Positions 12,280 to 39,967 of a stretch of 39,967 bases of DNA are shown one piece after another; the first letter of the stretch is position 1; each line of letters begins with the position of its first letter. The stretch is from an uncultured Verrucomicrobiaceae bacterium (lineage in GTDB: Bacteria > Verrucomicrobiota > Verrucomicrobiia > Verrucomicrobiales > Verrucomicrobiaceae). Made by a program: the position numbers and the translations under genes. The notes under the pieces are model-generated. The model was not told the origin of the DNA. It worked only from the letters and a program-made list of their open reading frames with translations, and searched no databases. The stretch is from the NCBI GenBank assembly GCA_937872615.1, contig CALMTT010000694.1, positions 1 through 39,967 on the forward strand, read 5' to 3'.

Positions 12280-13617
12280 ATGAGATCCTTCCTGCTCGCC
12301 CTGTCCTTCGGTTTGGTCACGCTTCCCGCTTTTGCCGAGGATGCGAAGCCGTTTGCGGCTGTCAGCACCACCGGCGCGAAGATCGCATTCCCCGGCGATT
12401 ACAAAGGAAAGGTCGTCATGCTCGACTTTTGGGCCACGTGGTGCGGGCCGTGCATCGGCGAACTGCCGAACCTCACGAAGGTGTATGCCGATCTGCATCC
12501 CAAAGGGCTCGAGATCCTCGGCGTGAGCCTCGACAGCGATGATCGCAAAGCCAGCCTCGGCGAGTTCACGAAGGACAAAGGCATGACGTGGACCCAGATC
12601 TGCGATGGCAAAGGCTGGCAGGCCGAGCTGGCGCAGCTTTATGGCGTGCGCGGCATTCCTGCATGCTTCCTTGTCAATGGCACCACCGGCGAACTGCTCG
12701 CGAAGGGCGCAGACCTTCGCGGTGCCTCGCTGCGGCCCACGATTGAAAAAGCGCTCGGCCTTCCCGTGAGCAACACACCGCCGGTGGCTTCCACACGTCC
12801 GTCTGCGAAGCCCGCGACACCTGCTGCGCCGCCCGCCCCGCCTGATCCGCTGCTCGAGATCGCCCCGAAGGTGGTGAAGCCTGAGCGCTTCCTCAGTCAC
12901 GAAGCCGTCAAAGCCCAGCTCAAGAGCCCGAAGCCGGGCCTCATCTCACTCGTGGCCGAATCCACCCAGTCGAAATCGAGCCGCGATGTCGCCCGCACGG
13001 CCCGTGCGGCTCACCTGCGCATCGGCTGGTTCTACCGCTGCACACGTTGTGACAAGATGCACATCAACATGGCCGGTGCCTATGCCGTCGCGCCGGATGT
13101 CGTCGCCACCGCGAACCATGTCATCGAGCCACCTGCCACGCTGAAGGAAGGCTCGGTGATCGTCGCGAATGCCGACAACGAGATCTTTGCCACGACCGCC
13201 ATCCTCGGTGCCGACGCGAAGGCAGATGTCGCGCTCATTCGGGTGACTGCCGGTGGCTTGAAGCCGCTGCCGCTGCGTGCCGATGTGGACCTCGGCGAGC
13301 CCGCCTACTGCTTCAGCGATCCGTTGAAGCACCGCGGCTACTTCAGCGCCGGCATCGTGAACCGGCTTTACTCGCTCGACAGCACCGAAGGAGCCGCCAG
13401 CCAGCGTCTCAATGTCAGCACGGATTGGGCACAGGGCAGCAGCGGCTCGGCTGTGCTGGATGAATACGGCAACGTCATCGGCCACGTGGCACGCATCCAG
13501 ACCTTCAACAGCAATCCAGCGCCCTCGAACGGCACCACGCTCGTCCTTCACGAGGCCATTCCGGCGAAAACGGTGCTCAACCTCATCAAACGCGTGAACG
13601 AGTCGGCGTCGCGGTGA
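12280..13617 (+). CDS. Thioredoxin-fold (TlpA-like) domain fused to a trypsin-like serine protease
   Basis: 445 aa. The frame is open from a TTG at 12244, but the ATG at 12280 directly precedes a signal peptide (MRSFLLALSFGLVTLPAFA). Residues ~25-165 form a TlpA/ResA-type thioredoxin fold with the active-site motif WCGPC (54-58) and the cis-proline loop GIPACF. A Pro/Ala-rich linker follows (about 170-190). The C-terminal part has a possible metal or redox CxxC (C254, C257) and then a trypsin-like fold with all three catalytic residues: H280 in TANHV, D316 in KADVAL and S390 in GSSGS. The protein would act in the periplasm. Coupling of disulfide chemistry with proteolysis suggests envelope protein quality control, but this is inference. 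The neighbouring DUF1501 gene converges on it, 3 nt away. Confidence 0.88.
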   Translation: MRSFLLALSFGLVTLPAFAEDAKPFAAVSTTGAKIAFPGDYKGKVVMLDFWATWCGPCIGELPNLTKVYADLHPKGLEILGVSLDSDDRKASLGEFTKDKGMTWTQICDGKGWQAELAQLYGVRGIPACFLVNGTTGELLAKGADLRGASLRPTIEKALGLPVSNTPPVASTRPSAKPATPAAPPAPPDPLLEIAPKVVKPERFLSHEAVKAQLKSPKPGLISLVAESTQSKSSRDVARTARAAHLRIGWFYRCTRCDKMHINMAGAYAVAPDVVATANHVIEPPATLKEGSVIVANADNEIFATTAILGADAKADVALIRVTAGGLKPLPLRADVDLGEPAYCFSDPLKHRGYFSAGIVNRLYSLDSTEGAASQRLNVSTDWAQGSSGSAVLDEYGNVIGHVARIQTFNSNPAPSNGTTLVLHEAIPAKTVLNLIKRVNESASR

Positions 13618-15078: not shown

Positions 15079-15813
15079 TCAAACGAGCCCAAACAGCCTC
15101 TTCAGCGACGCTGCGTCCGCCGTGGTGGCGAGCAGGAAGGCCTGCGAGCCGTGGCTCCATGAGGCGTAATGCCAGTTCTTCGAGGACTTGAAGCTCGGTG
15201 AATCCTGCGCGGGGCAGCAGTCGAGGCCCTCGTTTTCAAACACGACGAGATGAGCCTCTTTGCCGGCATCCAAGCGGAAGCAGATAATCGACGCCGGGCG
15301 GCCGTCGATCTCGACCCGCTTGCATCCAAAGGTGCTCAAGCTGGCGAGAGCAGCGGGCACCGCGGACGGGCACGGGCATTCCTTCTGCGTGAGCAAGGCC
15401 TTCACAGCTTCATAGCTCTCCGCCTGTGCATCGAGCGGTGTCATGCCATACTCGACCTTGGCCACGGCCGAGAGCGATTGGGCTTCCCACGCGGCCATGG
15501 CGCTGTTTCCGGGCCACAGCAGCGTCCAGCCAAACAGCACGCAGGCCGCGGCCGCGATGGCAGTGGGCGCCAGCCAGCGCAGCGGACGTTTGGCGGGCCT
15601 TTCATAGGCCGCTTGCAAGATGGAGTCCTTCAAGCCGGCCATGGCGGGCAGGCTCGCAAAGGCGTCAGCCACTTCCTCATCAAAAGCGCGGCGTTTTGCA
15701 TGCCATGCCGCCAGCTCTGGATCGCGGGCAAGCATCGCACGGGCTTCGGGCGACGCGTCCTGCGGGCGGAGTGTCGTGGCGTCGAGTTCGAGTCTGGCTT
15801 CTTCGCGGTTCAC
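15079..15813 (-). CDS. Probable membrane anti-sigma factor
   Basis: 244 aa. The cytoplasmic N-terminus (1-78) is helical and acidic, including DPELAAWHAKRRAFDEEVA. One membrane segment lies at residues ~81-102 (WLAPTAIAAAACVLFGW), followed by a ~140-residue outer domain containing several cysteines (CPCP; DCCP). No classical HxxxCxxC zinc motif is visible at the N-terminus, so the assignment rests on topology and on a 4-nt ATGA overlap with the ECF sigma gene, which implies translational coupling. The outer domain ends with WSHGSQAFLLATT, reminiscent of anti-sigma proteins that sense envelope state, but the signal is unknown. The DUF1501 gene follows after 33 nt. Confidence 0.7.
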   Translation of the reverse strand: MNREEARLELDATTLRPQDASPEARAMLARDPELAAWHAKRRAFDEEVADAFASLPAMAGLKDSILQAAYERPAKRPLRWLAPTAIAAAACVLFGWTLLWPGNSAMAAWEAQSLSAVAKVEYGMTPLDAQAESYEAVKALLTQKECPCPSAVPAALASLSTFGCKRVEIDGRPASIICFRLDAGKEAHLVVFENEGLDCCPAQDSPSFKSSKNWHYASWSHGSQAFLLATTADAASLKRLFGLV

Positions 15814-16400
15814 GGTGTGAAAGAGGCGGGGAGGATGTTTTCTTCGAATTTCAGGAGAATGCGGCGCAGGTGGTCCTTTGCTCGCGAAAGGCGTGACATG
15901 ACGGTGCCGATGGGGATGCCGAGCGATTCAGCGATCTCGCGATACGAGAGCTCCTTGAGGTAAAACAGCACCAGCGGTGCCCGGTAGGCCGGATCGAGCT
16001 GGTCGAGCGCCTTTTGCAGCGTCACGGCATCCACGCGCGGCGTTTGCTCTTCGTCATCCTGTTGCGCCGGGCTGTGCAGATCGGGCTCGAACTCCACCTG
16101 CTCGTGTTTTTTCTCCCTCCGGGCGATGCTCAGCCACTCGCGGTAAATGGTCGTGTAGAGCCAGGTCTTCACCTTGGAGCCATCGCGCAGCATGTGGCCC
16201 TTCCGCGCCCATTGCAGGAATGTCTGCTGCACCAGGTCCTGCGCCACCGCCTCGTTCCGGCACATGCTCACGGCAAAACGGAAGAGGCCCTGGTAGTGGG
16301 CGTCCACGATCTGCTCGAAGCTGGGCGGGGAATCGGACACGCGTCGTGCTATCGGGCGAGCTGCGGGCCATTCAAGGCCAAATTCAAGGGCAAGGTCCAT
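15810..16400 (-). CDS. ECF-type RNA polymerase sigma-70 factor
   Basis: 196 aa from the ATG at 16400. A GTG at 16502 would add 34 residues of doubtful, AT-rich sequence. Region 2 is clear: FEQIVDAHYQGLFRFAV and DLVQQTFLQWARKG, then the region 2.4-like KTWLYTTIYREWLSIARR. Region 4 is a helix-turn-helix: LDPAYRAPLVLFYLKELSYR followed by EIAESLGIPIGTVMSRL. It directs RNA polymerase to its own regulon, which by family habit may include its own operon. The stop codon overlaps the anti-sigma start (ATGA), so sigma and anti-sigma are made in a fixed ratio. No clear -35/-10 for autoregulation could be assigned. Confidence 0.9.
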   Translation of the reverse strand: MDLALEFGLEWPAARPIARRVSDSPPSFEQIVDAHYQGLFRFAVSMCRNEAVAQDLVQQTFLQWARKGHMLRDGSKVKTWLYTTIYREWLSIARREKKHEQVEFEPDLHSPAQQDDEEQTPRVDAVTLQKALDQLDPAYRAPLVLFYLKELSYREIAESLGIPIGTVMSRLSRAKDHLRRILLKFEENILPASFTP

Positions 16401-16498
16401 GGTCTGGAGCGGATCATTTTCGATGGGAGTGGCGGCAGGCGCGATTATTCCAGGCTTTTGGAAAATGGGTTCGTTTGGCAAAAAGGGTGTTTTTGAAA

Positions 16499-17392
16499 TC
16501 ACCCCCGTGCCGAGACTTCGACGGACAAGGGTGCGGGGATCATCTCGCCCCGGCGCATGCGCTGGATGCGTTCGAGCTGGGCCATGGCTCGGTACATCTG
16601 TCGTTCCAGCTTGGTCTCATAGCGGAGGATTTTGTCCAGGGTGTCAGCCGCCGGCAACACGGCGGCAGCTTTGAGGGCTTCGTCTTTATGCTCCTCATCC
16701 TCCACGCAGCGCTCCTTGGAGAACTCCGCGGAGCTGATCTCCCGGTCCACGAAAGCCAATGCCTTCTCTTTAATTTGCCGGGCGGTGTCGGGTCCATGGG
16801 GCTCCTGCTCCAATTGAAGGCGCAGCGTTTCCAAAGACTTGGTGAGGGAGTTGGGCTGACCGCCAAAGCGGGTGACGAGTTCCTGCACCGCCTCGGCCCG
16901 GATCGTGCCATGTTCTTCCACATCGGCACGCACAGGCCGAAGGTAACTGAGAAGCACCGAGGCACCGATGGAACAGTCCTTCATCGGGTAGATGGGATCA
17001 CCGAGTGACCTCCAATGCATCCATTGCAAGACCGGGTGGGTTCCCTGGCTCCGCTTGCGGTGACCGCTGTCCACACTGTGGGCGATGGCTCCGCTTTCGG
17101 CGATCATGGCACGGCGCAGCCGCCAGTGGGCTGTCACGATCTGGTCCACCAGCATCTCCTCGACGGGGCCTTCGGGCTGGAGGTCGTCCCAGAAGCGCTG
17201 GTGAAGCGCCTCCAGTTCGGAGCGGTCTTCCTGATAATGCTGCCCCTCCACGAGCACCTGCCGGGACAGGATGCCATGCTTGAGGGCATTCATCTTTGAG
17301 ACTTCGCGGCCCCGCGCGGTGCGCGGTCCGGTGGAACGCAGGGCGTTGCGGCGGTTGGCGGCCAGTTGTTTTTCGGTGACTCGTTTGGGCAT
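16499..17392 (-). CDS. Conserved hypothetical protein with N-terminal 'RNALxSTGPRT' motif
   Basis: 297 aa. The basic N-terminus (AANRRNALRSTGPRT, then SKMNALKHGILSRQ) belongs to a family I recognise by sight as frequent in Acidobacteria, Planctomycetes and Verrucomicrobia, but whose function I do not know. The remainder is helical; the C-terminus ILRYETKLERQMYRAMAQLE followed by RMRRGE is also typical of it. The basic ends suggest nucleic-acid binding, which is inference. GGGAGG at 17401-17406 lies 8 nt before the ATG and inside the end of the KTSC gene, so translation of the two is probably coupled (3 nt between coding regions). The gene marks the start of the accessory-looking block. Confidence 0.75.
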   Translation of the reverse strand: MPKRVTEKQLAANRRNALRSTGPRTARGREVSKMNALKHGILSRQVLVEGQHYQEDRSELEALHQRFWDDLQPEGPVEEMLVDQIVTAHWRLRRAMIAESGAIAHSVDSGHRKRSQGTHPVLQWMHWRSLGDPIYPMKDCSIGASVLLSYLRPVRADVEEHGTIRAEAVQELVTRFGGQPNSLTKSLETLRLQLEQEPHGPDTARQIKEKALAFVDREISSAEFSKERCVEDEEHKDEALKAAAVLPAADTLDKILRYETKLERQMYRAMAQLERIQRMRRGEMIPAPLSVEVSARG

Positions 17393-23404: not shown

Positions 23405-26400
23405 TCAGAGCGGCATCCGTGGCGGAGCAGTGGCCCACATCAGTTTCACTTCCTCCGGCGTGAGGTCGTAGGCTTGATTGATGAGGTCGCTGAGGGTGCG
23501 TTCGAGGTGGAGGGCTTCGGTGGCTTGCTGGCGGGCGGGGGCGATGCTGCGGGTGTGCTCGTCACGCAGGGCAGCGAGGGTGGCGGCGGTGAGGGGCTGC
23601 TTTTTGCCGCGCAGCTTCTTCACCTCGGCCACGAAGGCGTCGGAATCGAGGTCGGTCAGCGCGGCGAGCTTCTGGCTGGGCTTTTCGATGGCGTATTCCA
23701 CCCGCAACCAGTCGAGCACCGTGCGCTGCGTCTGCTGCTGGGCGGCCGTGATCTCGATGAGGCGGCGCACGGCGGTTTCGGCGGCCTCGCGGACCGCGGC
23801 GGTGGGTTCGGCGATGGGAAGCTCGGCCATTTTGAACGCCACCGGGCTGAGCGCCTCGTCCTTCATGTGCGGTAGCTCGCGCCAGTTGAACCACCATATC
23901 AAAGGTGAGTTCAAAACGGCGAGCAGATACAAATCATCGGTCGGGAGAATGAACGTCTTGTTGTTCGAGAAGACTCCGTTCGCTTCCAGAGCGTATGAGG
24001 GATGAAACTGAATCTCCTGATAAACGAGCTTCGGCCTTTTGAAGATGTCCCACGATTTGAAAGGCGACAGTTCCCACCAATATCGAACGGTGTTCTTCCG
24101 TCCTTTGAGAGCTTCGCGGTGGCTGTCCATGTGCGCGAATACTGATGGGTATGATTTGGCGAAAATGGCTTCTGCGTCCTGCTGGTCGCTCCAAGGCCAT
24201 TTGTGTTCGTTGCTCGAACGAAACGCGACCAACCACTCATCATTCCATTCGGAGGACCAGCGCTTCACATCCTGGCCGCGATAGTAACGAATGAAGATTT
24301 CCTCACAGCCGGGGTCACTTTTCACCATGAGGCGCTTCTGCTCATCGCTGACGAAGAATGCATCATTGCAGCCCGTCTTGAGCCCATAGATTGGATCGCA
24401 GCCGACAAACTTTTGGAGTGTTACTCCTGTGGCGCGAATTCGGGCCATCAAGGTCATCACTTCGCTTCGCTCAAGCTGCCACCCTTCCGATGTGAGCTGA
24501 TCCAAATCAAGTTCAGCACCTTCTTTGTCGATCTGAACGCTCAAGTCGTCGATGCGGAGCTGCTCACGCGGAATGGTGCAGAGGCGGGCGGTGGTCGGCT
24601 TGGCTTCGGTGGTCGGTTTTTCGGCGACGATGATGCAGGGGAAGACATCGGCCTCCTCGAAGATTTGCTTCGCGTGGCCGAAATCGACGACGCTGCGCAC
24701 CCAGGCCTGATCGCGGAAGAAGCGGCGCAGGGGCTCGCCGTAGCCGGCTTTCATCCATTTGTTCGTGACGATGTAGGACATGAGTCCACCGGGGCGGAGG
24801 AGCTTCATCCCCAGCTCGTAGAAATAGACGTAGAGGTCCGCCATGCCATGGTAGCTGGCGTAGCGTTGCTCCAGCCACGCTTTGAATGGCGTGAGCAGTT
24901 CCTGCCGCACATAGGGCGGATTTCCCACGACGACATCGAAGCCGCCTGTGGCAAAAACCTCCGGGAAGGCGGCCTGCCAGTCGAAGGCCTTCGCGTGCAC
25001 CGTGGTGTCGCTGATGATGCTGTTCCCCTCGCGGATGCTGTGGTCGAGGCTGGTGAGCTGTTTGCCGTGCGCGGCGGTTTTGATCCAAAGGCTGAGCTGG
25101 CAGATCTGAATGGCCTCGGCATTCAAATCGACGCCGTAGAGGTTGTGCTGGAGGATCTGGCGGTCGAGATCGAAGAGGGTGCGGTGGCCGCGCAGCTCCT
25201 CCAGGCGTGCATTGGACACCTCGTAATGGGCGTGGAGCTGGTCAAAGGCCTCGATGAGGAAAGCACCGCTGCCGCAGGCGGGATCGACAATGCGCAGGGC
25301 CTTCAACTGCTCCTGCCACTGCTCCCAGAAGCGGATGAGCGCTTTTCGTTGCGGCTCATTGAGCGCGGCGAGGTCGTAGGCGCTGGGATCGGCGAGGGCT
25401 TTCCTGGCCGTGCCGGTGGCGGCGGTCTCCTCGGTGCGGCGCAGGGCCTCAAAGCGGGCGAGGATGACGCTGCCGAGCGTCTGCTCGACGATGTAGCGGG
25501 TGATGAAGGCGGGGGTGTAGAAGGCACCTTCCTTTTTGCGGCGTGTCTTTGCCTCCGCCTCATCGGGCGCGGCCTCGCCGCTGGCGAGATCGAGCCGCAG
25601 GCGCTCCAGGTCGGTGATGGATTGCTCAAAGATGTGGCCGAGGATGTCCACATCAATGACGGGGCGGATTTCCACGCTGTCATCGGCCGCGTCGGACTCG
25701 CGGGCGGGACGGTAGTCGTATTCGGCGAGGTCGCGGAAGAGGGCGCAGACGCCATCCGGCACGGTGAGGGTATCGAGGCCGGGATCGTGAGCGAAGAGGC
25801 CGCCGTTGTAAGCAGGGATCTTCAGTGTGGCATTGCCGACATCGACGCTGCGAAAGAGGCCGCGGAAGTTTTCCCAGATGGGCCGCGGGTTGTAGGGATC
25901 GCTGTGCTCGAAGGCTCCGCGCACGGTGTTCGGCGGCAGCAGGCCGCGATCCTCGCAGAAGGAGCAGAAGAGCACGCGGTCGAGCAGCTTCTGGGTGCAG
26001 CGGAGGATTTCATTGGGATCCGCGGCGCTGTTCGCGTGGCGGAGCTGGGTGAAGACCTGCTGCCGGATGCCGGCGTAGAGGCCGTAGAACTGGTTCGTCA
26101 GCTCGCGGCCCGCGCTTTCGGAGGAGCGCAGCAGGGTGTCGAGATGGCTGGGGCCGCTCTCCGGCACCACGCGCTCCGCGCCGAGGAGGAAGACGAAGCG
26201 GCGCAGCAACGCCTCATCGCTGGCGAGGCGCACGGTGTCAAAGCGCTCGTAGGTCTGCTGGTTCGAGCCTTTGTGATGCAGCCGCGTCTCCCGCATGGAG
26301 GTGACGATGATCCAATCACACGGCAGATTGATGGCGTAGCGGTAGGCCTGATCGACGGCGGACATGCGGCGTCCGGCAAAGGGCCGCTCCAGCGGATCAC

Positions 26401-26752
26401 GCGTGCCCTTTCCCTCGACGGCGACGACGAAACGCTGCGTGGAGGCGGTGAAGCGCCCCAACGCGGCATCCGCGAACTGGCCGTCCACCTCGACATGCGT
26501 CTCCCGCAGCATGGTGAAGCTATCGCCGGCGGCAGCAGGGCCGGTGTAGCCGAGTAGCTGACCGAAAATGTCGGTGAGGAACTCCGGCAGCAGCGCGGTT
26601 TCCTTGAACGTGTCCGCCTTGCCGGAGCTGATGAGGTCCGCCCAATGCTGGAGGCGCGGACGGGCGGCCTCGACGGTAGCGGGCAGGTTAAAAGCATGCG
26701 CGGCCTTGCGCAGGAGTTCGGGGGAGAAGAGGGGCTTGGTTTCGACGGCCAT
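23405..26752 (-). CDS. Type IIG (Eco57I-like) restriction-modification enzyme
   Basis: 1,115 aa from the ATG at 26752; a GTG at 26845 would add 31 residues. A single chain should both cut and adenine-methylate DNA. Residues ~15-130 hold a probable PD-(D/E)xK nuclease, with VVAVEGKGTRD near 108-118. A helical linker follows, with the Eco57I-type signature KKEGAFYTPAFITRYIVEQ. The N6-adenine methyltransferase then shows motif I DPACGSGAF (about 487-495) and motif IV NPPY (about 610-613). The C-terminal third is a TaqI-like target-recognition domain (YGLKTGCNDAFFV, RYYRGQDVKRW). Recognition site is not predictable. The gene is divergent from mpl and lies at the edge of the accessory block, consistent with phage defence. 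Confidence 0.9.
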   Translation of the reverse strand: MAVETKPLFSPELLRKAAHAFNLPATVEAARPRLQHWADLISSGKADTFKETALLPEFLTDIFGQLLGYTGPAAAGDSFTMLRETHVEVDGQFADAALGRFTASTQRFVVAVEGKGTRDPLERPFAGRRMSAVDQAYRYAINLPCDWIIVTSMRETRLHHKGSNQQTYERFDTVRLASDEALLRRFVFLLGAERVVPESGPSHLDTLLRSSESAGRELTNQFYGLYAGIRQQVFTQLRHANSAADPNEILRCTQKLLDRVLFCSFCEDRGLLPPNTVRGAFEHSDPYNPRPIWENFRGLFRSVDVGNATLKIPAYNGGLFAHDPGLDTLTVPDGVCALFRDLAEYDYRPARESDAADDSVEIRPVIDVDILGHIFEQSITDLERLRLDLASGEAAPDEAEAKTRRKKEGAFYTPAFITRYIVEQTLGSVILARFEALRRTEETAATGTARKALADPSAYDLAALNEPQRKALIRFWEQWQEQLKALRIVDPACGSGAFLIEAFDQLHAHYEVSNARLEELRGHRTLFDLDRQILQHNLYGVDLNAEAIQICQLSLWIKTAAHGKQLTSLDHSIREGNSIISDTTVHAKAFDWQAAFPEVFATGGFDVVVGNPPYVRQELLTPFKAWLEQRYASYHGMADLYVYFYELGMKLLRPGGLMSYIVTNKWMKAGYGEPLRRFFRDQAWVRSVVDFGHAKQIFEEADVFPCIIVAEKPTTEAKPTTARLCTIPREQLRIDDLSVQIDKEGAELDLDQLTSEGWQLERSEVMTLMARIRATGVTLQKFVGCDPIYGLKTGCNDAFFVSDEQKRLMVKSDPGCEEIFIRYYRGQDVKRWSSEWNDEWLVAFRSSNEHKWPWSDQQDAEAIFAKSYPSVFAHMDSHREALKGRKNTVRYWWELSPFKSWDIFKRPKLVYQEIQFHPSYALEANGVFSNNKTFILPTDDLYLLAVLNSPLIWWFNWRELPHMKDEALSPVAFKMAELPIAEPTAAVREAAETAVRRLIEITAAQQQTQRTVLDWLRVEYAIEKPSQKLAALTDLDSDAFVAEVKKLRGKKQPLTAATLAALRDEHTRSIAPARQQATEALHLERTLSDLINQAYDLTPEEVKLMWATAPPRMPL

Positions 26753-26885
26753 GCGGGCTGCATGGAAGCGGGCACAGCGCGAAATGGCAAGCGATGTGGC
26801 GTCCGGCGTGAATCTTCCTGCCTCCGCACTTTTTTGGAGCGACACGGCTAAATCCGGCTTCTATCGCTGCCCTCCTACCTGATTC

Positions 26886-32682: not shown

Positions 32683-35600
32683 TTATGGCTGCGTCACGCG
32701 GACGCGGCTGAAGATCTTGTCCACGGTGGCGGGATCGGCGGGTTCTTCGATGATGACGCGTTCCCAGCCGGGGGCGATGGGCGTGACGGTGGGCGTGGTG
32801 GTGATGGGCGCCCAGGAACTCAGTGTGGTGGATTTTTCCGGCAGGTAGGTGATGCCGCCGGTGGTGCGGCGGATGAATTCGATGCGGAAAACGCTGCCGG
32901 GGCCGCTGCCGGTGCGCTGCACGGTGGGAAGGCCGGAGGTGCCAGTGCCGGGAAGAAGCGTATGAAGGTCCACAACGGCGGGATTGAGATTGAAGGCGTA
33001 TTTGAGGAGGTTTGACAGACCATCGCTGGCCGGGTTGGAGTCGAGGCCGCCTGTGCTGGCACCCAGGCCTGCGGAGGAGGCCCAAGTTTGATAGGCTGAG
33101 TCTGGGACGACGAGTCCGATGAGCGGGAAGTTGAAGGTGCTTTCATCGACATCGTTGCTGTTGAGATTCAAACTGCCGCTGAAGGTGCCTGCGCTGGTGG
33201 CATCGAGACGTGTTTGGAAGGTGTATGTCGCGCTCGGAGCGAGACTGGAGCCCGGCAGCGCGGTTTGCAGCGTGTATCCGGCGGGCGGCGTGATGCTGCT
33301 GAGCTGCAAATCGGCCGTGCCAGTGTTTTGCACGGTGAAGCTGCGCGTCACAGCCATGCTTTGGGTGGTGATGCCGAAGTCGATGGCGGTGCTTTGTCCG
33401 TCAGCGAGCTGCGGCGCGGCGTTGGTGGTGCCGTCATGCACGACGATCTCGGGTGCGAGCGCATCCGGCGTGTAGCGGAGGAGGATCACCTGGCCGTCAT
33501 TGCCGAGATAGCCCCAGCCACCGACGATGATGCTGCCATCGCTCTGGGTGGCGATGCCCCAGGCGTACTGATCGCGGCCAGGGGAGGGATTGACGATGGA
33601 GACTCCGCTGGTGCCAAAGGAGGTGTCGAGCAGGCCATTGGCGAGCAGGCGGATGGCCACGATGTCGTTGTCGGTGCCGTTGTAGCGATAGCCGGCGGCG
33701 AGGATGCGGCCGTCGGGTTGCAAGGCGAGGTCGTAGATGCTTTCGGAGTTTCCAGGAGAGGTTTGGACGCTCGTTTTGCCGCTAATGCCAAAGGTGGTGT
33801 CGAGCGTGCCGTTGGTGAGGTAGCGGGCGATGGTGAGCTCGCCATCGGAGCCGTTGGAGGCGAGGCCGCCGAGGAGGATTTTGCCATCTGGGAGGAGCTG
33901 GATGGCGTAGGCGATGTCATCGAGGCTGCTGAGGGAGCTGACGACCTTGCCGCCAGTGCCGAAGGTGGTGTCGAGCGTGCCATTGCTGTTGAAGCGAGCG
34001 AGGGCAAAGTCATCGAGAACGCCGGTGGCGGTCTGGCAGCCGAGGAGGATTTTGCCGTCTGGCTGGAGTGTCATGGACCAGCAGCGGTCGAGATCATTGC
34101 CAAAGGCCATCGTGACGATGCCGAAGGTGGCGTCGAGCGTGCCGTTTGAGTTCAATCGCACGAGGGCGACATCGTCATTGCTGCCGTTGTTGGAGTAACC
34201 ACCGACGAGGATTTTGCCGTCCGGCTGGAGGGCGACGGCACGTGCGATGTCGAGGCCGGTGCCGATGGGCAGGATCACTTTGCCGGCGGTGCCAAAAGTG
34301 GTGTCGAGAGCGCCGTCGGCATTCAGGCGAATGAGGCTGAAGTCCTCGTTCGTGGCGAGCGAGTAGCCTGCGAGAATGGTTTTACCATCTGGCTGCACAG
34401 TGATGGCATACGGGAAGTCCGAGTTGGCTCCGACGGGCACGCGGGTGATGCCATCTGGCGGCACGCTGGTGTCTGGCGTGCCATCCGGGAGGAAGCGGGT
34501 AAGCTGGAAGTCGCTGCTGGCACCGGAGTTACCGTTTCCAGTGATGAAAACGCGGTCGTCAGGCAGCATCGCCATCGCATAGCCAGCATCGAAGCTCACG
34601 GCGAAGTCATTGCTGAGAATTCCAGAGCCGCCGACGGTGGTGTCGAGGGCACCAGCGGCAGTGGTGACGAGCAAAACGGCCTCGTCATCCCGTGCGGCGG
34701 CGGCATAGCCGACGATGGCGATGCGGCCATCGGCGAGGGATTTAACGCCCCGGCCTTGCTCTGTGCCAGCACCGATGGGGAAGATGGCTTTGCCATCCGT
34801 GTCGAAAGTGGTGTCGAGTGAACCTGCCGTGTTGTGGCGTGCGAGGGCGATGTCGTAGTTCGTGCCGTTCCAAGTGATGCCGGTGGTGAGGATTTTGCCA
34901 TCGGCCTGGAGGTCCATGCTGTAAGCCCAGTCGGTGGAGGTGCCAAAGGTGGTGGTGACTTTGCCATCGGTGTCGAAGGTCGTGTCGAGGCTGCCGTTGC
35001 TGTTGTAGCGGGCGAGGGCGAATTCGTCTCCCACACTAGGCATATTGGCATAGCCTGCAGCGACGATTTTTCCGTCGCCTTGGAGTTGTATTTGTCGGAT
35101 TGTGTCGGCGCTTGTGCCTATGGTTGTCGTGACCTTCCCGTCAGTGTCAAATGTGGCGTCCAGTGAGCCATTGACGTTGAGACGAACAAGAGAGAAGTCA
35201 TCATTACTGCCGTTGCTGGACAGTCCGGCCAGAATGATTTTCCCGTCTGTTTGAACGGTTGAGGAGTAACAAAAGTCCGTTGTTGAACTGATGGAGACGT
35301 TCAAGATGCCGTCAGAGTCAAAGGTCGTGTCGAGTTCTCCGGAAGACGTGAACCGCACGGCGACCATGTCGTAATTGAACAGGGACCCCGACTGGAACAA
35401 GCCGTGTCCAGCAATAATGATCTTTCCATCTGCCTGGATAGAAGCTGTGTTGCAGGAGTCGAAGCTGTCGGTTGGGGCAACGATAACCTTGCCGTCACCA
35501 CTGAAACTGTTGTCCAACGCCCCGTTGGTCTGCAAGCGGACTGCAAACATGTCATCGTTCGTGCCATTGCTGGCAGTCCCTGCCAAAATGATCTTGCCAT

Positions 35601-38600
35601 CCGGCTGCACGAGCACGCTGTTGGCGGTGTCGCTATTGCCATTCAAATCATAGATCACGGCTCCACCGCTGCCAAAGGTGATGTCCGGTGTTCCATCGGT
35701 GTTCCAGCGGGTGACGAGCACATCGTAAGTTACTCGTCCGCCGGTGTAGGTGCGGCCTGCGGCGATGATTTTGCCATCTGCCTGCTGGGCGACGCTGTAG
35801 TAGTGATCTTGGCCGGTGGTGATGCCTTGAGTCACCTGGCCTCCAGAGCCGAATCCGGCATCAAGCTGGCCCGGGGGCGGCAAAACAGCCATCACATTGC
35901 CGACGACGGGAATTTCAAAATTGGCCTCATCGCTGTCATTGCTGGTGATGACGAGGTTTCCGCTGAAAAGGCCCGCAGAGGCCGCGTCGAGCCGAAGTTG
36001 GAAAACGGCGCTGGAACTGCTGGCGATGCTGGAGGGCGCATTTTGCACGGTAAAGCCCGCCGGGGCCGTGATGGAACTGATGGTGAGGCTGGAGAAGCCC
36101 TGATTGGCGACGGTGAAGCTGCGGATGACCTGGCTGCCCATGAGCGTGGAGCGGTAGTTCACGGTGGAAGCCTGTGCATCGCTCAAAGCGGTGCCGTCGA
36201 GGCTTACCGCGATCTCCGGCGCATCCACGCTGCCGCGAACGGGGAAGTCAAAGGAGGCCTCGTCCGCGTCATTGCTGGCGATGACGATGCTGCCGCTGAA
36301 AAAGCCCGCGCTGGTGGCATCCAGGCGGATTTGGAAGGTGGCGATGCCTCCCACCGTCACGACGGAGGGCGCTCCGAGCACGCTGAAACCAGTCGGTGCG
36401 GTGATGGAGCTGATGGTGAGGTCTGCGCTGCCCGGATTGGTGATCTGAAAGCTGCGTGTCACAGCAGAACCGGAGGGCACCGCTCCGTAGTCGAGCACGG
36501 TGGTCTGGCCATCGGTCAGGGCGGTGGCAGGCAGCGTGTTGGCATCCGCGAGAGTGATCTCCGGCACGAGGGCATCCGGCAGCAGGCGCAGCACGAGCAT
36601 CTGGGTGTCGCTGCCCGGATTCACTGTGTAGCCGGTGATGACGATGGCACCGTCGTTTTGCACCGCGATGGCATACCCATAGTCAGTGCCCGTGCCGTAA
36701 GGGATGACGAGCTTGCCATCGCCATCGAAGCTGCTGTCGAGCAGACCGTTTTCGAGGAAGCGGAGCACGGCGATGTCGTAGCTGGTGCCGTTGTAGGTGC
36801 GGCCAGTGGCGAGGATCTTGCCGTCCGGCTGCAAAGCGATGCCATAGATCGTGTCCGTGCTGGCGAGGACGGGGACGATGGTCTTGCCACCGGAACCGAA
36901 TGCGGGGTCGTAGCTGCCATTGGCATTGAGGCGGACGATGGCGGCATCGCTGTTGGCCTCACCTGCGGCGAGGATTTTACCATCGGGGAGCACTTGGAGC
37001 GCATACACATACTCGGAGTTGCTCGCTGGAGTCAAGGTGACGAGCCCGCTGGTGCCAAAGCTCGTGTCGAGCGTGCCGTTGGCATTGTAGCGGGCGAGGC
37101 CGAAGTCGGTGCTGGTATTGCCAGCATTGCGCGTCTCGCCTGCGACGAGGATGCGCCCGCCTGAGTAGGCCGCGATGGCGTAGAGGCGATCTGTACCCAC
37201 CGTGGCGGTGGTGGTGACTTTTCCACCCGTGCCGAAGGTGCCATCGAGGCTGCCGTCTGCATTATACCGGGCGATGGCGTAGTCATCATTGCTGCCGTTG
37301 CTGGAATAGCCCGCCAGGACGATGCGTCCGTCGTTTTGCAGCAAAAGGGCGCGGCCAATATCAGTGCTGGCGCCGATGGTGGTGGTGGCGCTGCCATTGT
37401 TGCCAAAGCTGGTGTCCGGCGTGCCGTCTGCATTTTGGCGCATGACCATGAAGTCATCGTTGCTGATGAAGGAGTGGCCGCCGAAGACGATCTTGCCATC
37501 CGGCTGCACGGCCACGCCGTAAGCGCGATCCGTGCTGGTGCTTACACGGGTGATGGTCTTTCCGCCGGTACCATAGCTGTTGTCCAGCGTGCCGTCAGGC
37601 AGGAAACGGGCGGCGGTGACGTCGTCAGTGACACCCTGGTAGATGTAGCCAGCGGCGATGATTTTTTGATCCGGCTGAATGGTCATCGCCAGACCGTAGT
37701 CCGAGCCTTGACCAAAATTGAGAAGAGCGACTCCAGACGAGCCAAAGGTGCTCCGCGTGCTGCCGTCTGGCTCCAGGCGTGTCACGGCCACGTCGTTGTC
37801 GCTGCCATTGAAGGCATAGCCTGCCAGCACGATGCTGCCATCCGCGTGCAGGGCCACGGCACGGGCAAAGTCACTGTTGTTTCCCGGTGCGAGCGGCAGC
37901 ACTCGCTTTCCATCCGTGTCAAAGGTGGTGTCCAGTGCCCCGGCGGAGGTATAGCGGGCAATGGCGAAGTCATCCGCCGTGCCCGTGGTGATGGAGTAGC
38001 CAGCGGCGATGACCTTGCCATCACTCTGCAAGGCGACGCCGTAGATGCGGTCGGTGCCGGTGCCGATAGGCGTGGTCACCTTCCCGTCTGTGTCGAAGCT
38101 GGTGTCCAGCGAGCCGTTCGTGTTGTAGCGGGCGAGGGCGAAATCGGACCCCACCATGTAGCCGCCGACGAGGATTTTGCCGTCCGGCTGGAGGAGCATG
38201 TCATGGATACGGTCCGTGCCGGTTCCGATGGTGGTGGTCACTTTGCCATCCGTGTCAAAGGTGGTGTCCAGCGTGCCGTCCGTGTTGTAGCGCACGAGGG
38301 CGAAGTCCTCGTTCGTCATCGCGGCATAGCCTGCGAGGATGATCTTGCCGTCTCCCTGCAAGGCGGCGGTGTAGGCGATCTCGGTGCCAGTGCCGATGGT
38401 GGTGACCACCTTTCCGCCTGTGCCGAAGGTGGAATCGAGCGCACCGGTGCTGGTGTAACGCACGGCGGCGAAATCGCTGTTTGTGCCGTTATTAGCTTCG
38501 CCGGCCAGCACGATTTTGCCATCTGGCTGCACGAGCACCTTCCAGCCGTAGTCACTCGCGCTGCCGATGCCGGTGGTGACGATGCCATCGGTATCAAACG

Positions 38601-39967
38601 AGGAGTCGAGGCTGCCGTCCGCGAGATAGCGCACGAGGGCGAAATCGTAGTTGCTGCCGTTATAGGTGTAGCCCCCGGCGAGGATCTTGCCGTCTGGCTG
38701 GAGAGCGAGGCTGTAGATGCGGTCACTGCTCGTGCCCACGCGGGTGATGACGATGCCCGCATTGCCGAAAGTGCTGTCCAACGTGCCATCTACGTTCAGG
38801 CGGGCGAGGAAGAACTCGTAGTCCCCGCCCATGTAGGCATTGCCGCCGACGAGAGTTTTCCCATCGTTGAGGGCGAGAGTGGCATAGGCTTCATCATTGG
38901 CACCACCAAAGCCCGTGGGAGCGAAGCCATCCCCGCTGAAGGACGGGTCCGGCTGGCCTGCGGCGAGAGCTATGGCTGTCACCACGCCCGCCACCGGCGC
39001 CTCGAAGCTGGCCTCGTCCGCGTCGTTGTTGGCGATGACCACGTTTCCGGCAAAACTGCCAGCTGTTGCTGCGGTGAGGGTGACCTGGAAAACGGCGCTG
39101 GAGCTGGCGGGGATGCTGGTGGGAGCATTTTGGACGGTGAAACCAGCGGGCGGAGTGATGGAGGTGATGCTCAGGGCTGCCAAACCCGTGTTTTCGATGA
39201 CAAAACTCTGTGTGACCGCGATGCCCTGCGGCGTGGAGCGGAAGGAAACCGGTAATGACTGCCCATCGGCCACATTTTGCCCATCGGCATTCAGAGCGAT
39301 CTCCGGCGCATCCACGCCGCCACGCACCGGGAACTCGAAACTGGCTTCATCCGCGTCGTTGCTGCTCAAGACGATGTTTCCGTTGAAAAAGCCCGCGGAG
39401 GCCGCGGTGAGCTGAATTTGGAAAGTGGCCTCGCCACCGGCGGAAACGAGCGAGGGCGGATTTTGCACGCTAAAACCCGCCGGAGCCGTGATGGAGGCCA
39501 AAACGAGGTCCGAGGTGCCGGGGTTCGAAATCGTGAAATCACGCGTGATGGCCGATCCGGTGCCGGTGGAGCCGAAATCGACCGCGGTGGGCTGCCCGTC
39601 GGTCAAAACAGGTGCCAGCGAGGTATCTCCATCGAACACGGTGATCTCCGGCTGGAGCGAGTCGCCTACCAGACGCATGACGAGGAACTCAGGATTCGCG
39701 CCCTGGTAGGTGTAGCCGCCCACGACGATGCTGCCGTCACTTTGCAGGGCCACCGCATTGGCATAATCATCACCCGTGCCCGGCGCGGCGATGAGGTCGT
39801 TGGTGGAAATGATCTGCGCGGCTTGCTGGAGCGTGATGGTGTCGCTGGTGAGCGCATCGCTGGTTTCATCGCCGGGCAAACCGGACGTGTGACTGAACAT
39901 CTGGCGGATGGTGATCGTGCCCTTTTGCCCGGTGTAATACTGCGGAAAGAACTTGGACGCCGGATCA
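32683..39967 (-). CDS. Giant delta-60-repeat/choice-of-anchor-D surface protein, joined in frame to a partial serine hydrolase; 5' end outside window
   Basis: The frame is open from the right edge to a TAA at 32683, about 2,427 codons; a Met at 39900 is internal, not a convincing start. Order: partial class C beta-lactamase-like segment (IRQMFSHTSGLPGDE, up to about residue 42 after that Met); half a delta-60 repeat; two choice-of-anchor-D (ASH-like) domains (about 85-305); 14 delta-60 repeats (about 315-1110); two more anchor-D domains (1110-1335); 14 more repeats (1343-2148); one anchor-D domain; and a C-terminal domain (2262-2405) with YQTWASSAGL and DGLSNLLKYAFNLNP, common on exported Verrucomicrobia proteins. 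Delta-60 units carry DGKIlvaG and lDttF and are predicted beta-propeller blades. It is probably secreted and cell-surface attached; the ligand is unknown. pheS follows after 49 nt. Confidence 0.85.
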   Translation of the reverse strand, partial: DPASKFFPQYYTGQKGTITIRQMFSHTSGLPGDETSDALTSDTITLQQAAQIISTNDLIAAPGTGDDYANAVALQSDGSIVVGGYTYQGANPEFLVMRLVGDSLQPEITVFDGDTSLAPVLTDGQPTAVDFGSTGTGSAITRDFTISNPGTSDLVLASITAPAGFSVQNPPSLVSAGGEATFQIQLTAASAGFFNGNIVLSSNDADEASFEFPVRGGVDAPEIALNADGQNVADGQSLPVSFRSTPQGIAVTQSFVIENTGLAALSITSITPPAGFTVQNAPTSIPASSSAVFQVTLTAATAGSFAGNVVIANNDADEASFEAPVAGVVTAIALAAGQPDPSFSGDGFAPTGFGGANDEAYATLALNDGKTLVGGNAYMGGDYEFFLARLNVDGTLDSTFGNAGIVITRVGTSSDRIYSLALQPDGKILAGGYTYNGSNYDFALVRYLADGSLDSSFDTDGIVTTGIGSASDYGWKVLVQPDGKIVLAGEANNGTNSDFAAVRYTSTGALDSTFGTGGKVVTTIGTGTEIAYTAALQGDGKIILAGYAAMTNEDFALVRYNTDGTLDTTFDTDGKVTTTIGTGTDRIHDMLLQPDGKILVGGYMVGSDFALARYNTNGSLDTSFDTDGKVTTPIGTGTDRIYGVALQSDGKVIAAGYSITTGTADDFAIARYTSAGALDTTFDTDGKRVLPLAPGNNSDFARAVALHADGSIVLAGYAFNGSDNDVAVTRLEPDGSTRSTFGSSGVALLNFGQGSDYGLAMTIQPDQKIIAAGYIYQGVTDDVTAARFLPDGTLDNSYGTGGKTITRVSTSTDRAYGVAVQPDGKIVFGGHSFISNDDFMVMRQNADGTPDTSFGNNGSATTTIGASTDIGRALLLQNDGRIVLAGYSSNGSNDDYAIARYNADGSLDGTFGTGGKVTTTATVGTDRLYAIAAYSGGRILVAGETRNAGNTSTDFGLARYNANGTLDTSFGTSGLVTLTPASNSEYVYALQVLPDGKILAAGEANSDAAIVRLNANGSYDPAFGSGGKTIVPVLASTDTIYGIALQPDGKILATGRTYNGTSYDIAVLRFLENGLLDSSFDGDGKLVIPYGTGTDYGYAIAVQNDGAIVITGYTVNPGSDTQMLVLRLLPDALVPEITLADANTLPATALTDGQTTVLDYGAVPSGSAVTRSFQITNPGSADLTISSITAPTGFSVLGAPSVVTVGGIATFQIRLDATSAGFFSGSIVIASNDADEASFDFPVRGSVDAPEIAVSLDGTALSDAQASTVNYRSTLMGSQVIRSFTVANQGFSSLTISSITAPAGFTVQNAPSSIASSSSAVFQLRLDAASAGLFSGNLVITSNDSDEANFEIPVVGNVMAVLPPPGQLDAGFGSGGQVTQGITTGQDHYYSVAQQADGKIIAAGRTYTGGRVTYDVLVTRWNTDGTPDITFGSGGAVIYDLNGNSDTANSVLVQPDGKIILAGTASNGTNDDMFAVRLQTNGALDNSFSGDGKVIVAPTDSFDSCNTASIQADGKIIIAGHGLFQSGSLFNYDMVAVRFTSSGELDTTFDSDGILNVSISSTTDFCYSSTVQTDGKIILAGLSSNGSNDDFSLVRLNVNGSLDATFDTDGKVTTTIGTSADTIRQIQLQGDGKIVAAGYANMPSVGDEFALARYNSNGSLDTTFDTDGKVTTTFGTSTDWAYSMDLQADGKILTTGITWNGTNYDIALARHNTAGSLDTTFDTDGKAIFPIGAGTEQGRGVKSLADGRIAIVGYAAAARDDEAVLLVTTAAGALDTTVGGSGILSNDFAVSFDAGYAMAMLPDDRVFITGNGNSGASSDFQLTRFLPDGTPDTSVPPDGITRVPVGANSDFPYAITVQPDGKTILAGYSLATNEDFSLIRLNADGALDTTFGTAGKVILPIGTGLDIARAVALQPDGKILVGGYSNNGSNDDVALVRLNSNGTLDATFGIVTMAFGNDLDRCWSMTLQPDGKILLGCQTATGVLDDFALARFNSNGTLDTTFGTGGKVVSSLSSLDDIAYAIQLLPDGKILLGGLASNGSDGELTIARYLTNGTLDTTFGISGKTSVQTSPGNSESIYDLALQPDGRILAAGYRYNGTDNDIVAIRLLANGLLDTSFGTSGVSIVNPSPGRDQYAWGIATQSDGSIIVGGWGYLGNDGQVILLRYTPDALAPEIVVHDGTTNAAPQLADGQSTAIDFGITTQSMAVTRSFTVQNTGTADLQLSSITPPAGYTLQTALPGSSLAPSATYTFQTRLDATSAGTFSGSLNLNSNDVDESTFNFPLIGLVVPDSAYQTWASSAGLGASTGGLDSNPASDGLSNLLKYAFNLNPAVVDLHTLLPGTGTSGLPTVQRTGSGPGSVFRIEFIRRTTGGITYLPEKSTTLSSWAPITTTPTVTPIAPGWERVIIEEPADPATVDKIFSRVRVTQP
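33456..35868 (-). repeat. Delta-60 repeat block 2 (14 units, ~172 bp each)
   Basis: Fourteen consecutive protein units of about 54-61 residues, each with an lDttFgtdGkv start, a central Q.DGKI..aG and an alarRynsdGs end. Unit 8 is the most divergent (LDTTVGGSGILSNDF; LPDDRV). Unit 14 ends in LLRYTPDALAPEI, running into the next anchor-D domain. Boundaries are approximate. Confidence 0.85.
36570..38955 (-). repeat. Delta-60 repeat block 1 (14 units, ~170 bp each)
   Basis: Fourteen consecutive units of the same type. Unit 8 again is atypical (TRSTFGSSGVALLNF; QPDQKI) and shares RFLPDGT with unit 8 of block 2; unit 9 shares ITRV. Unit 14 ends in LRLLPDALVPEI, as in block 2. The blocks are therefore aligned position by position, suggesting duplication of a whole block. 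Confidence 0.85.
39775..39966 (-). other. Serine hydrolase (beta-lactamase class C-like) fragment at the N-terminal end of the giant frame
   Basis: About 64 codons reading FFPQYYTGQKGTITIRQMFS, HTSGLPGDE and LIAAPGT. The ITIRQ(L/M)xxHTSGLP stretch is a landmark of class C beta-lactamase/D-alanyl-D-alanine-type serine hydrolases and lies between their SxxK nucleophile and YxN/YGG motifs. In normal members PGT is followed by Phe/Ser-Tyr-Gly and more of the fold. Here, right after PGT (39775-39783), the sequence becomes GDDYANAVALQSDGSI, a delta-60 unit. The SxxK part would lie beyond the window. Confidence 0.75.

Follow-up and report, generated by a model that had tools for sequence, protein, structure and literature searches.

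A thioredoxin domain joined to a PDZ-less HtrA-like protease in Verrucomicrobiota: a possible tethered reductase-protease

Clearing disulfide-bonded misfolded envelope protein needs both reduction and cutting, steps that are normally described as the work of separate factors. The TlpA, ResA and DsbE oxidoreductases are, to our knowledge, single-domain proteins without a protease, and MarP (Rv3671c), a membrane-anchored HtrA-like protease of mycobacteria for which control by a disulfide outside the position considered here has been reported, carries no thioredoxin that we know of. A direct tie between a disulfide and HtrA activity is described for DegP, in which the Cys57–Cys69 disulfide of the LA loop (precursor positions 83 and 95) regulates activity, its removal raising activity; human thioredoxin 1 reduces this disulfide in vitro, and the authors confine the mechanism to Enterobacteriaceae (PMC4339722). 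A second kind of tie acts through the substrate: HhoA, a Deg protease, accepts PsbO as a substrate once thioredoxin has reduced it (PMC3446894). The protein described here unites both steps, reduction and cutting, in one polypeptide, and the two appear to have been joined more than once.

The window, a stretch of 39,967 nucleotides from an uncultured Verrucomicrobiaceae bacterium (contig CALMTT010000694.1), encodes this protein (P0001, 445 residues) on its plus strand at 12280–13617, with an ATG at 12280 and a stop codon that ends at 13617. The original prediction had seen thioredoxin and trypsin-like domains in one protein here, which is borne out by the single open reading frame, by Pfam matches above cut-off to AhpC-TSA (residues 21–133, E = 7.7e-17) and Trypsin_2 (residues 270–401, E = 1.3e-17) and by a WCGPC redox active site at residues 54–58 (12439–12453). 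That the protein is exported, as was also proposed, agrees with its start, MRSFLLALSFGLVTLPAFA, which by eye looks like a signal peptide (residues 1–20, MRSFLLALSFGLVTLPAFAE; 12280–12339). The domain that follows (residues 21–159, 12340–12756) has the thioredoxin fold and WCxxC of the TlpA/ResA type, export being judged by eye; besides AhpC-TSA/Redoxin in Pfam, it matches by sequence the PDB entries 3kcm, 3gl3 (DsbE), 4nmu (ResA) and 1jfu (TlpA). An AlphaFold2 model of residues 21–445 (mean pLDDT 88.1, pTM 0.59) is confident except in part of a Pro/Ala-rich linker at about residues 161–190 (12760–12849), where model residues 151–164 (model number + 20 = protein number) fall below a pLDDT of 50 and where length varies in the alignment of relatives.

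Beyond the linker, at about residues 226–445 (12955–13614), lies a two-barrel serine protease domain with the His-Asp-Ser triad of the HtrA/Deg (S1C) proteases. In structure comparisons of the model it matched HtrA1 (3nzi; Z 23.0, rmsd 2.6, 192 residues aligned) and DegS (3gdv; Z 22.5, rmsd 2.8, 196 aligned), and hhalign aligned it with DegP at E = 1.1e-13. Because Pfam found no PDZ domain in P0001, the chain of which ends at the protease domain, we call the domain HtrA-like and not HtrA proper. The triad had been read as His280-Asp316-Ser390; His280 (13117–13119) and Asp316 (13225–13227) stand, each being retained in 80 of 80 aligned relatives (L157 and L170 omitted from this count), while the true serine is Ser388 (13441–13443), the second serine of GSSGS (386–390), which aligns with the serine of the HtrA GNSGG motif and is likewise present in all 80.

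Among 80 loci kept of 212 relatives in a scan of genome contigs, 16 (L009–L024) are full-length fusions at 43–89% identity. Because of these relatives and the confident model (pLDDT 88), the P0001 gene is genuine, neither a frameshift nor a chance product. The full-length fusion occurs in 16 of 56 related genomes, all 16 of them among the 35 genomes of the window's genus, and in two lengths, about 445 residues and about 730 residues; the long form has an extra N-terminal region, for which Pfam gave only a sub-threshold GEVED match in the one long form searched. Fusions of other architectures occur in two phyla: L139 (607 residues), L165 (668 residues), L170 (576 residues) and the L152/L153/L155 group, in which the longer L152 locus has two thioredoxin domains ahead of the protease, the second recognized by eye. 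The suggested search for other proteins with TlpA-like and trypsin domains was thus productive, and the two domains are not found only separately elsewhere. WC[GK]PC is retained in 28 of 28 fused thioredoxin domains. In the window's phylum, the protease profile itself matches in at least 22 of 387 genomes, and in that of G435, a Planctomycetaceae bacterium, in at least 20 of 294; both are lower bounds, as mostly 6 and 9 candidates per genome, respectively, were scored.

In the Planctomycetota fusion with two thioredoxin domains (L172, 10–3216; L152, 994–1416), a stretch of 140 residues ahead of the protease has YQACNAEVCMPP. By eye, a DsbD-alpha domain had seemed to lie between thioredoxin and protease in L152, and this candidate was rejected: the stretch matches no Pfam family and no PDB entry, BLAST against the host DsbD gave an E-value of 0.22, and PF11412 has no match at that place.

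In the protease-domain tree, which holds 81 of 82 rows (the cut-off domain of L157 being omitted), the fusion label needs four changes, at least two of which are forced by starred branches; on the thioredoxin tree it needs five, at least three of them forced, a weaker result as long branches meet there. Both trees were made by a quick method and hold some long branches. Their topology, together with the differing architectures in Verrucomicrobiota and Planctomycetota, suggests that the fusion probably arose more than once, with at least two origins. The recurrence of the fusion suggests that thiol reduction and this protease are functionally tied, although these phyla are rich in TlpA-type domains and repeated fusion may therefore partly reflect supply. 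Taken to its end, the argument from supply would make the thioredoxin just one of many TlpA modules spread among exported proteins, with no coupled function, and the many unfused thioredoxin relatives in the same genomes suit that reading. It is nevertheless improbable, given that the fusion architecture is kept over a clade of 22 rows at 44–90% identity to the window protein and that the ordinary HtrA proteases examined do not share it. For this comparison, 36 loci of ordinary Trypsin_2 proteins were drawn from a search of the window's own genome and of 27 relatives; 32 of these loci were readable (L182, L183, L214 and L215 gave no usable ORF). No thioredoxin domain was found in any of the 32 control ORFs, against 28 of 81 in the subfamily (p = 2e-5, a nominal value, the rows being related and the controls being the strongest Trypsin_2 matches); nominal thioredoxin matches on L191, L195 and L196 proved to be PDZ domains. 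Nor does a cysteine pair precede the GSG strand in any of the 32, whereas a CxxCxxxH motif is present in 74 of the 81 subfamily domains. Absent from the controls and frequent in the subfamily, the hairpin that holds this motif and the thioredoxin fusion thus characterize this subfamily. The window's genome also encodes an unfused paralogue (L002, G000:C520, frame 1270–2283) of about 337 residues, whose hairpin reads CTKCDKWH and which can serve as a natural control for the fusion.

The CxxCxxxH hairpin of P0001 (C254, C257 and H261; 13039–13062) contains the extra CxxC noted at 254/257 ahead of the protease in the original prediction, which is CTRC at residues 254–257. The two cysteines lie in the turn between model strands 225–234 and 240–251, the first hairpin of the protease; hhalign places the second strand of this hairpin on the DegP strand after the LA loop, and DegS, from its residue 45 on, aligns with the whole protease domain, including the helix and the first strand. 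Because this strand order matches the DegP and DegS alignments, the CxxC of the model occupies the LA-loop place, a placement by topology and not by aligning the loops residue by residue. C254 is kept in 76, C257 in 75 and H261 in 78 of 80 domains, and the cysteines are lost as a pair, both being present in 75, one in 1 and none in 5 of 81 domains. With the protease tree rooted at its midpoint, the hairpin is found on either side of the root, although the true root may differ, and the hairpin therefore probably predates the fusion of the window.

The proposal attached to this motif was that the fused thioredoxin reduces or oxidizes it and so gates proteolysis: a C254–C257 disulfide in the LA-loop hairpin would be switched in cis. 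Much about the hairpin is consistent with a gate, namely a near-invariant cysteine pair (C257 in 75 of 80) that is lost as a unit, its position between protease strands one and two, the place of the LA loop in DegP, and the joining of a thioredoxin to this subfamily more than once. DegP lacking the loop disulfide, moreover, cleaves better, and human thioredoxin 1 reduces that disulfide in vitro (PMC4339722). A gate built for a fused thioredoxin should follow the thioredoxin, however, and the CxxC does not. It is conserved among homologues, as the original proposal required, but 25 of the 28 fused domains and 49 of the 53 unfused ones have an intact CxxCxxxH (Fisher p = 0.69). Among unfused proteins, L123, L125, L138 (which has C-x4-C) and L167 lack the motif, and the fusions L023, L139 and L170 lack CxxC while keeping WCGPC and the catalytic triad. 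A tree-based independent-pairs test of CxxC against fusion yielded two pairs on starred branches, too few to decide. In the flanks covered, a thioredoxin gene lies beside only 1 of 54 unfused loci (L137), on the opposite strand. Equal retention with and without thioredoxin therefore lends no support to a gate worked by the fused domain and, with the CxxC independent of fusion and absent from L023, L139 and L170, the benefit of fusion cannot rest on the CxxC alone. Further points against a gate are the C-x4-C of L138, which differs from a redox CxxC, the near-invariant His261, which a simple disulfide leaves unexplained, and the restriction of the DegP mechanism to Enterobacteriaceae by its authors (PMC4339722). 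The original proposal is thus supported in part: the CxxC is real and, in favour of a gate, sits at the LA-loop place, but it is uncoupled from the fusion; a redox gate on C254/C257 is unproven and not the simplest reading, although DegP is a real precedent. Because the DegP pair at this place controls activity, we allow such a gate a minority chance. A broader form of the idea, which we consider unlikely, is that this subfamily in Verrucomicrobiota and Planctomycetota has a redox-sensitive hairpin and repeatedly acquired its own thioredoxin as the reader or writer of that hairpin; if true, this would be a one-polypeptide, redox-switched envelope protease.

The composition of the hairpin may point elsewhere. 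Its consensus in 74 domains, C-x-[KR]-C-[DSNE]-x-[WML]-H, resembles half a zinc knuckle more than a redox CxxC; a hairpin turn is a usual site of a zinc knuckle, and zinc sites tolerate C-x4-C, as seen in L138. From the shape of this motif and the retention of His261 in 78 of 80 domains, the hairpin perhaps binds zinc or another metal that holds the LA-loop hairpin or a subunit contact. In the full form of this explanation, the two halves of the protein would be largely independent and the thioredoxin would serve general envelope thiol chemistry, which we judge rather unlikely: independent halves leave the recurrent fusion unexplained, and the family conserves no fourth ligand, since besides the catalytic histidine the candidate ligands conserved over the 80 rows are C254, C257 and H261, and position 344 is cysteine in only 45 of 80. 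The other protease cysteines (P0001 positions 220, 278, 311, 344 and 426) vary by clade, in 21, 19, 7, 45 and 25 of 81 rows, and those at 278 and 426 never co-occur in the 81 rows. A disulfide between the CxxC and C344 was rejected as a general feature, position 344 being cysteine in 45 of 80 domains and L107, L108 and L116 keeping the CxxC without C344.

The reading that we prefer, to which we would give a probability of roughly 45%, is that P0001 is an exported two-module quality-control enzyme in which the tethered thioredoxin opens client disulfides and the hairpin is structural. The TlpA-type thioredoxin would be kept reduced by DsbD of the host, which could feed such a domain because the host genome encodes a DsbD with DsbD_N, a membrane part and WCLTC. 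Tethered through the flexible linker to the PDZ-less HtrA-like serine protease, the thioredoxin would reduce wrong or stabilizing disulfides of client proteins, and the opened client chain would be cut by the adjoining protease. The simplest link of reduction to cutting is thus suggested to be the client, reduced and then cut, by analogy with PsbO and HhoA. The CxxCxxxH hairpin would most likely be structural, a metal knuckle or a small stabilized turn, and no switch for the fused thioredoxin. The retention of the CxxC in 25 of 28 fusions counts against this client-directed model and also fits a redox role.

The neighbourhoods compared show no conserved partner gene beside the fusion. The flanking gene for a 649-residue protein and the 3-keto-disaccharide hydrolase and DUF1501 genes are common only to the two nearest relatives (L009 and L010), and an operon with the fusion gene was rejected on this ground. 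Elsewhere in the window, a sigma-70 family (ECF-like) gene on the minus strand (15079–16502) overlaps a downstream gene that, by eye, may encode an anti-sigma factor and has no Pfam match. Also on the minus strand are a gene for a protein of 1146 residues (23405–26845), by eye a type IIG/PglX-like DNA methyltransferase with an NPPY motif that is possibly involved in restriction or phage defence, and one for a highly repetitive, probably exported protein of 2405 residues with many 'DGKI..AG' repeats (32683–39900).

A literature search that covered few subscription journals gave no published report, for these phyla, of a thioredoxin fused to an HtrA or trypsin protease. Within the literature covered, P0001 presents known domains in a recurrent combination, and a loop motif without a counterpart. 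Because the thioredoxin and the CxxC are each present in some natural variants and absent from others, LA-loop redox control becomes testable outside Enterobacteriaceae.

Each of the known systems accounts for part of this protein. TlpA, ResA and DsbE share with P0001 a thioredoxin domain with WCxxC, to which its first domain is matched by sequence. MarP shares an HtrA-like domain, and P0001 gives a weak match to the NCBIfam MarP model (E = 3e-4, far below cut-off). The Synechocystis HhoA/PsbO pair is alike in its logic, thioredoxin reduction opening a substrate to a Deg protease (PMC3446894), although there two separate proteins act in turn, whereas P0001 has both in one polypeptide. Finally, E. 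coli DegP shares the chymotrypsin-fold protease, the order of the triad and a cysteine pair at the LA-loop place; its cysteines, however, belong to a long loop that keeps them 12 residues apart, in contrast to the tight CxxCxxxH hairpin of P0001, and DegP combines its protease with PDZ domains and lacks a thioredoxin domain, whereas P0001 has no PDZ domain and carries a thioredoxin of its own.
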